Program-made: the position numbers and the translations under genes
Assembly (NCBI RefSeq): GCF_000001735.4
Contig: NC_003070.9
Location: 29,373,971 to 29,437,970 of the forward strand
Direction of reading: 5' to 3'
Length of the DNA: 64,000 nt
Source: Arabidopsis thaliana
Taxonomy: Eukaryota; Streptophyta; Magnoliopsida; Brassicales; Brassicaceae
Notes under the pieces: model-generated
Databases searched by the model: none
The model's input: only the letters and a program-made list of their open reading frames with translations
Told to the model about the DNA's origin: nothing
Part shown: positions 47,681-48,849 of the stretch, in pieces
Layout of the letters: the number at the start of each line of letters is the position of its first letter
How positions within the stretch are numbered: the stretch's first letter is position 1

Positions 47681-48246
47681 TAACCAAGAAGACTCAGCTT
47701 ATATTGGATTTGGAGCTTCCTTTGCTTCACCATGATTCTTTTGGGGTCCGGTTTAGTTTGATTCTGGGTCTTGGTTACTTGTGCATTTTTAAGAACATGA
47801 GTTTGAATAGGACTATTATATATTACTAGTTTGACAAACCAGATATTTTATCATATAAATTACATGAAAAGAATAGTCGATTTTAAATGGTTTCAATTTG
47901 TTCTTGGAATCGTGGATAATTAATCATCTACTCATTAATCAATGTTAACAAGAAAATAAACAATCATTCAGTCAACTGCATTCATATCAGACAGACTCAT
48001 TATTTTTCTGGGCTTTATTGAAAAGGCCCATTATAGCCCATAAAACGTTAGACCTAAAGGGAAATTAGGGTTTCTGAAGCTGGAGGCGGACACTATATAT
48101 ACCAATGCTCTTCTCTGTTAACATAATCGTGTTCTTGATGGTTCTCAAAGCCGAATCGTTTTTCTTTCAAATTTGTTCTCGTTTAATCATTGATGATAGA
48201 CTAAGAAAATTAGGGTTTTTTATTTTTGGTTTTTGATAAAGAGAAA
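47681..48246. other. PP2C 3' UTR and MIR775A promoter region
   Basis: PP2C 3' UTR to about 47880, spacer, then the promoter at 48009-48101 and the presumed transcribed leader. A second TTAGGGTTT lies at about 48210. Confidence 0.5.
48009..48101 (+). promoter_or_regulatory. Site II / telo-box / TATA promoter of the MIR775A unit
   Basis: TGGGCT (48009), GGCCCA (48025), AGCCCA (48035), the telo-box TTAGGGTTT (48065-48073) and TATATATA (48094-48101) are lined up in the order typical of Arabidopsis ribosomal-protein and snoRNA genes. No protein-coding gene starts downstream on the plus strand before MIR775A. Confidence 0.65.
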
Positions 48247-48390
48247 GATGCCTCTTCTTTCAGCAGCAAGATTATTCTTGTTAGCTTTGTTCTGGAGGCA
48301 CAGATCAATCGCCATTATGAGAGGGATTTTTTTATAATTTGCAGAGTTGTTCTTCCTTCTTTGCTGATTATCCCTCTTTGTGGTACATAA
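48247..48390 (+). ncRNA. Candidate H/ACA box snoRNA upstream of MIR775A
   Basis: A two-hairpin layout with both boxes. The 5' hairpin has a basal stem TGCCTC (48249) / GAGGCA (48295), open pockets, and an apical stem 48262-48271 / 48276-48286 with a TTAT loop. The H box AGATCA (ANANNA) is at 48302-48307, and 15 nt separate the upper stem from it, as the family rule requires. The 3' hairpin has AGAGGGAT (48320) / ATCCCTCT (48370), GCCA / TGGT outer pairs and an inner GCAGAG / CTTTGC. ACA at 48385-48387 is three bases from the proposed end. The 3' pocket geometry is less regular. The upstream promoter type supports a snoRNA. The RNA target was not identified. Confidence 0.45.
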
Positions 48391-48484
48391 TCTCTTAGTT
48401 TTTCTTCGTATTAACATAATAGTGTTGGAGTGAGGATTTTGATGAAAGAACATCATGGCGGTTGGCGACTGAATAAGAGGATTT

Positions 48485-48603
48485 AAACGTTGCACTACGT
48501 GACATTGAAACTGTCTTTCAACATTCCAATATTTCAACTTTCGAATACCCAATATTTGGTTTGTTCAAAGACATTTTCGATGTCTAGCAGTGCCAATGTT
48601 TAA
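48485..48603 (+). ncRNA. MIR775A: MIR775A hairpin (At1g78206)
   Basis: The 20-nt mature miR775 TTCGATGTCTAGCAGTGCCA is at 48576-48595, on the 3' arm. The 5' arm 48485-48521 (AAACGTTGCACTACGTGACA, then TTGAAACTGTCTTTCAA) pairs back to it and to the flanking CAAAGACATTTT, giving a stem of about 35 bp with a few bulges and an AT-rich loop. From the literature miR775 is a young, Arabidopsis-lineage miRNA that guides cleavage of a galactosyltransferase mRNA (At1g53290). Confidence 0.92.
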
Positions 48604-48849
48604 AATCAACTGATAATTTTGGAATTAATGTGTATAAAGATTCGAACTTTTATTTGTTTGACTCTGATTGTATTCTCTTTGCCTAATTGATGATTTCATT
48701 GTGATATGCACTGAATGATTCAAACTTTATCTTGTGGACAACAAATTAAACTTAAAACTGAGCAACGAAGTGGTAATGTGAAAATGATATATATGTTATT
48801 AATCCTTGGAAATTACTTATGAGAGGATCTTCAAAACGATGACTAAGAA

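Follow-up and report, generated by a model that had tools for sequence, protein, structure and literature searches.

Layout and promoter of the locus

The window analysed here, a stretch of 64,000 nt of Arabidopsis thaliana DNA (C1:29373971-29437970, in a genome of 119.7 Mb and 7 contigs), contains an H/ACA snoRNA, snoR775, and the miRNA gene MIR775 (Table 1). On the forward strand, three Site II elements, a Telo-box and a TATA box are followed by a two-hairpin structure and then by the MIR775 hairpin. The snoRNA and the miRNA hairpin are thus found on one strand behind a single Telo-box/Site II promoter, as in a dicistronic gene. The snoRNA-type promoter that an earlier note on this DNA had placed upstream was present, with its Site II, Telo-box and TATA elements all lying within 48009-48100. 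A Telo-box/Site II combination and a TATA box have also been described upstream of the sno-miR775 gene (Qu et al., 2015; PMC4660826). The window holds eight Telo-boxes. Within 150 bp of two of them there are two or more Site II elements, and the Telo-box at 48065 is alone in having three. Another copy of the Telo-box TTAGGGTTT was observed at 48210-48218, 3' of the TATA box and probably within the transcribed leader.

Table 1. Features of the snoR775/MIR775 locus, in positions of the window.
Feature	Position	Strand	Details or basis
Three Site II elements	48009..48040	+	TGGGCT at 48009, GGCCCA at 48025, AGCCCA at 48035
Telo-box TTAGGGTTT	48065..48073	+	motif search
TATA box TATATAT	48094..48100	+	motif search
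snoR775 (H/ACA snoRNA), 144 nt, probable mature form	48247..48390	+	fold, ACA scan, snoR144 match, published northern
5' hairpin	48249..48300	+	pocket strands 48256-48261 and 48287-48293
H box AGATCA	48302..48307	+	unpaired in the fold
3' hairpin	48311..48384	+	fold
ACA box	48385..48387	+	unpaired; followed by TAA to 48390, i.e., three bases before the proposed 3' end
MIR775 hairpin	48482..48604	+	limits by fold
Mature miR775	48576..48595	+	complement matched exactly here

Fold and probable mature limits of snoR775

The segment 48247-48390 folded at -47.6 kcal/mol, compared with -29.2 ± 2.9 for shuffled sequences (z -6.38; 0 of 200 as good), and each of its hairpins was stable when folded alone, with z -4.20 for the 5' hairpin (48247-48301; 1 of 200 shuffles as good) and z -4.67 for the 3' hairpin (48308-48390; 0 of 200). 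Two hairpins joined by a hinge, an unpaired AGATCA that fits the H box pattern ANANNA and an ACA box three bases from the end were found, all as the earlier note had proposed, together with its 15-nt spacing, measured to the H box from 48287, at which the unpaired right strand of the open 5' pocket begins. In H/ACA RNAs, 14–16 nt separate the open pocket from its H or ACA box. The height of the 3' pocket was correct, but in the minimum-energy fold the pocket was closed, its guide strand being paired. Extending the segment by 7 nt at the 5' end and 5 nt at the 3' end (48240-48395), a fold that the same note had suggested, left the 5' hairpin in place (-49.8; z -4.43). With 4 extra 5' bases (148 nt), the minimum-energy fold (-48.2) contained a rearranged 5' hairpin, and in segments of 136 and 140 nt the lower stem of this hairpin was gone.

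All 2460 ACA trinucleotides on both strands of the window were then scanned as the ends of segments of six lengths (14760 segments), using an H/ACA-like filter; 26 segments, with ends at 21 different positions, passed it. Among these, 48247-48390 had the most stable fold, the runner-up reaching -35.5 kcal/mol (a gap of 12), in a scan biased toward this candidate because the lengths took in its own 144 nt. The snoR775 sequence was single-copy in the genome by DNA search. An RNA of ~150 nt has been detected by northern analysis in seedlings, leaves and flowers (PMC4660826), a size close to the ~144 nt expected in the earlier note. The observation of this snoRNA in the bare sequence is confirmed.

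The targets of the two pockets were also considered. The published prediction for snoR775 is 25S U1465 (PMC4660826); no confirmation of this site was seen, since "1465" is absent from the main text of a review of Arabidopsis rRNA modification (PMC8351944). Both pockets were compared with seven snRNA sequences, comprising 2 of 5 matches to U2, 3 of 14 to U5 and 2 of 22 to U6, and the best scores were at the level of chance (matched by 32 and 44 of 200 shuffles). Since 4 pocket positions entered the shuffled control and 9 and 16 the real scan, the true support for an snRNA target is weaker still.

The limits given above are in conflict with those of the Rfam family RF02705 (B_rapa_snoR775). The match of this model, the only one listed for the genome, spans 48179-48305 on the + strand with 164.6 bits (gathering cut-off, 64), and of its 127 consensus positions, 126 are identical in the window. 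The two forms belong to one locus, with RF02705 starting 68 nt and ending 85 nt further 5' than the 144-nt form, so that it comprises a leader and the 5' hairpin and leaves out the stable 3' hairpin. If the mature snoRNA were this 127-nt span, the H box would be AGAGAA (48240-48245), the ACA box would lie at 48300-48302, and 48311-48384 would be merely flanking transcript. Precisely these limits are covered by the model, the ACA stands three bases from its end, and AGAGAA is unpaired in the fold and fits the H motif ANANAA printed in the Results of PMC4660826, which AGATCA does not; the Background of the same paper, however, writes the usual ANANNA. The fold in this register was weak. The leader (48179-48246) folded like its shuffles (z -0.09; 86 of 200 as good), and the whole span reached z -1.45 (18 of 200). 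Moreover, the ACA at 48300-48302 overlaps the last stem pair and lies 13 nt from the pocket instead of 14–16, the strong 3' hairpin would have no role, and 127 nt matches the ~150-nt band less well. We consider these limits very unlikely. Because RF02705 holds only the 5' hairpin and a shuffle-like leader, the published size is better accounted for by the 144-nt limits, and the true mature snoR775 is most likely 48247-48390, with the RF02705 match apparently out of register.

The MIR775 hairpin and candidate miR775 sites

The segment 48480-48607 folded at -45.2 (z -8.78; 0 of 200 shuffles as good) into a long hairpin carrying mature miR775 in one arm, as is required of a plant miRNA gene. The snoRNA does lie upstream of it, as claimed in the earlier note, at a distance of 91 bases and not 95, since the fold places the hairpin at 48482-48604. 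No second copy of the hairpin was found in the genome by DNA search, in which it matched itself alone.

The complement of miR775, used as the query, occurred with up to three mismatches at three places in the genome (MIR775, C1:19872174 and C1:27227), compared with four for a reversed control. The place at C1:19872174-19872193 is presumably, by its position, the site in the galactosyltransferase gene GALT9. PMC3925372 gives galactosyltransferase as the target of miR775, and the miR775 sequence printed in PMC4354979 differs from our query in the last base. The third place, C1:27227-27246 (L020:1501-1520), is a sense-strand site in DCL1 that departs from the miR775 complement at three positions, and sites of this kind occur at chance frequency; its letters are identical to a published prediction for AT1G01040 (PMC4354979), and it is therefore not new.

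A possible origin of MIR775 by inverted duplication was checked by comparing its arms with the galactosyltransferase gene. In reverse complement, the 3' arm matched the galactosyltransferase site with a score of 30, which 3 of 500 shuffles attained. Against this gene, the three remaining readings of the arms stayed at chance level (284, 403 and 500 of 500 as good), and no similarity between the arms and the gene extended past 21 nt.

One transcript, possible kinship and related systems

A locus where the snoRNA and MIR775 are neighbours with separate promoters and without a common precursor would suit a possible response of MIR775 to its own regulators. Such an arrangement is extremely improbable, as published data contradict separate transcripts. 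A transcript of 655 nt was obtained by 5' and 3' RACE, and the 605-nt cDNA BX818024 spans both snoR775 and miR775; RT-PCR across both RNAs is also reported there, as data not shown (PMC4660826). In the same paper, snoR775 was unaffected in dcl1-7, dcl3, dcl4, rdr2 and rdr6 mutants, and miR775 was DCL1-dependent. Qu et al. (2015) named the gene sno-miR775; it is one of two Arabidopsis genes for which they reported a precursor shared by a snoRNA and a miRNA. The shared transcript proposed in the earlier note is therefore backed by published RACE, cDNA, RT-PCR and dcl/rdr northern results. The dicistron interpretation is supported, and it was already known, having been described and tested in 2015. 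We are highly confident that this locus corresponds to sno-miR775, a known gene of Arabidopsis thaliana, with one transcript giving rise to snoR775, most probably in its 144-nt register, and to miR775.

Transcription of sno-miR775 starts at the Telo-box/Site II/TATA promoter, of the type used by plant snoRNA genes, and yields one transcript of ~655 nt, as shown in print. An H/ACA snoRNP would presumably assemble on 48247-48390 and protect snoR775, a likely pseudouridylation guide for which the target is a printed prediction. From the downstream hairpin, miR775 is cut by DCL1, and the snoRNA has no need of DCL1, as the published mutants show. The idea in the earlier note that miR775 could have gained its expression through the snoRNA promoter fits this layout. 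The arrival of a miRNA in a pre-existing snoRNA precursor is discussed in PMC4660826. The gene provides an example of how a young miRNA could make use of an existing promoter, an arrangement already considered in print. Later mentions of snoRNA-miRNA genes, citing that paper, occur in PMC8351944 and PMC7464842, and in the literature searched the name snoR775 was found in PMC4660826 alone.

A possible kinship with another H/ACA snoRNA, snoR144, was also analyzed. At a permissive threshold, the Rfam model of snoR144 (RF02412) aligned over its entire length on exactly 48247-48390, with 33.9 bits (E 1.6e-4). As this score is far below the gathering cut-off of 100, kinship is only suggested; snoR775 was likewise absent from the RF02412 search of the genome at E ≤0.001. 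On the MIR775 hairpin, E values down to 0.003 were obtained with sub-threshold miRNA-family models, taken as chance matches; the value for snoR144 is therefore not far from chance. The genomic snoR144 itself lies at C5:142346-142489 (174.4 bits). Over the whole length, the global alignment score of the two snoRNAs was 79 and the local score 80; dinucleotide shuffles gave global scores of 44 ± 8, with 0 of 1000 as good, and 3 of 1000 were as good for the local score. The similarity was weaker when the hairpins were taken separately. For the 5' hairpins, 23 of 2000 single-base shuffles were as good, and the similarity of the 3' hairpins was modest, with 102 of 2000 as good when the terminal ACATAA was kept fixed and 89 of 2000 when it was removed. 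In the sole reverse control, the snoR144 locus matched none of the other H/ACA families at E ≤1.

The pattern CCTCTTTGN{3,6}TACATA was found at six places in the genome, compared with five for its reversed control. Apart from the two snoRNAs, these comprised four places, which were rejected as a third member of the group, having no two-hairpin H/ACA fold by eye; none matched a snoRNA family at E ≤1, and one gave a sub-threshold miRNA-family match. The name snoR144 was not found in the literature searched. On the - strand at L002:1709-1770, ~65 nt upstream of snoR144, a C/D-like match to snoR442 was observed (20.6 bits; cut-off, 50; E 0.26), which is perhaps a second snoRNA of the snoR144 transcription unit and perhaps a product of chance.

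The combined proposal that snoR775 is a paralogue that has diverged from snoR144, that RF02705 is out of register and that an old snoRNA unit was later used by a young MIR775 for its expression is unlikely to hold as a whole, and we offer it tentatively. What is left beyond the published account is the probable database correction of the RF02705 register and the possible link to snoR144. The register conflict has the main practical use.

Compared with known systems, snoR144 is equal in length to snoR775 (144 nt), shares with it CCTCTTTG, which starts 12–13 nt before the ACA box, and differs from it in the 5' pocket strands. Upstream of snoR144, a Telo-box and Site II elements are found as at snoR775, but farther away, at -301 and at -379 to -493, respectively. 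The published sno-miR775 shares with the locus in the window the organism, the miR775, the upstream H/ACA snoRNA and the Telo-box/Site II/TATA promoter, and no difference was seen between the two, as far as the text of PMC4660826 describes the snoRNA. By contrast, sno-miR779 (snoR128/snoR129 and miR779) contains two C/D snoRNAs and no H/ACA snoRNA; here too, a single Telo-box/Site II gene gives rise to both kinds of RNA, snoRNA and miRNA (PMC4660826).
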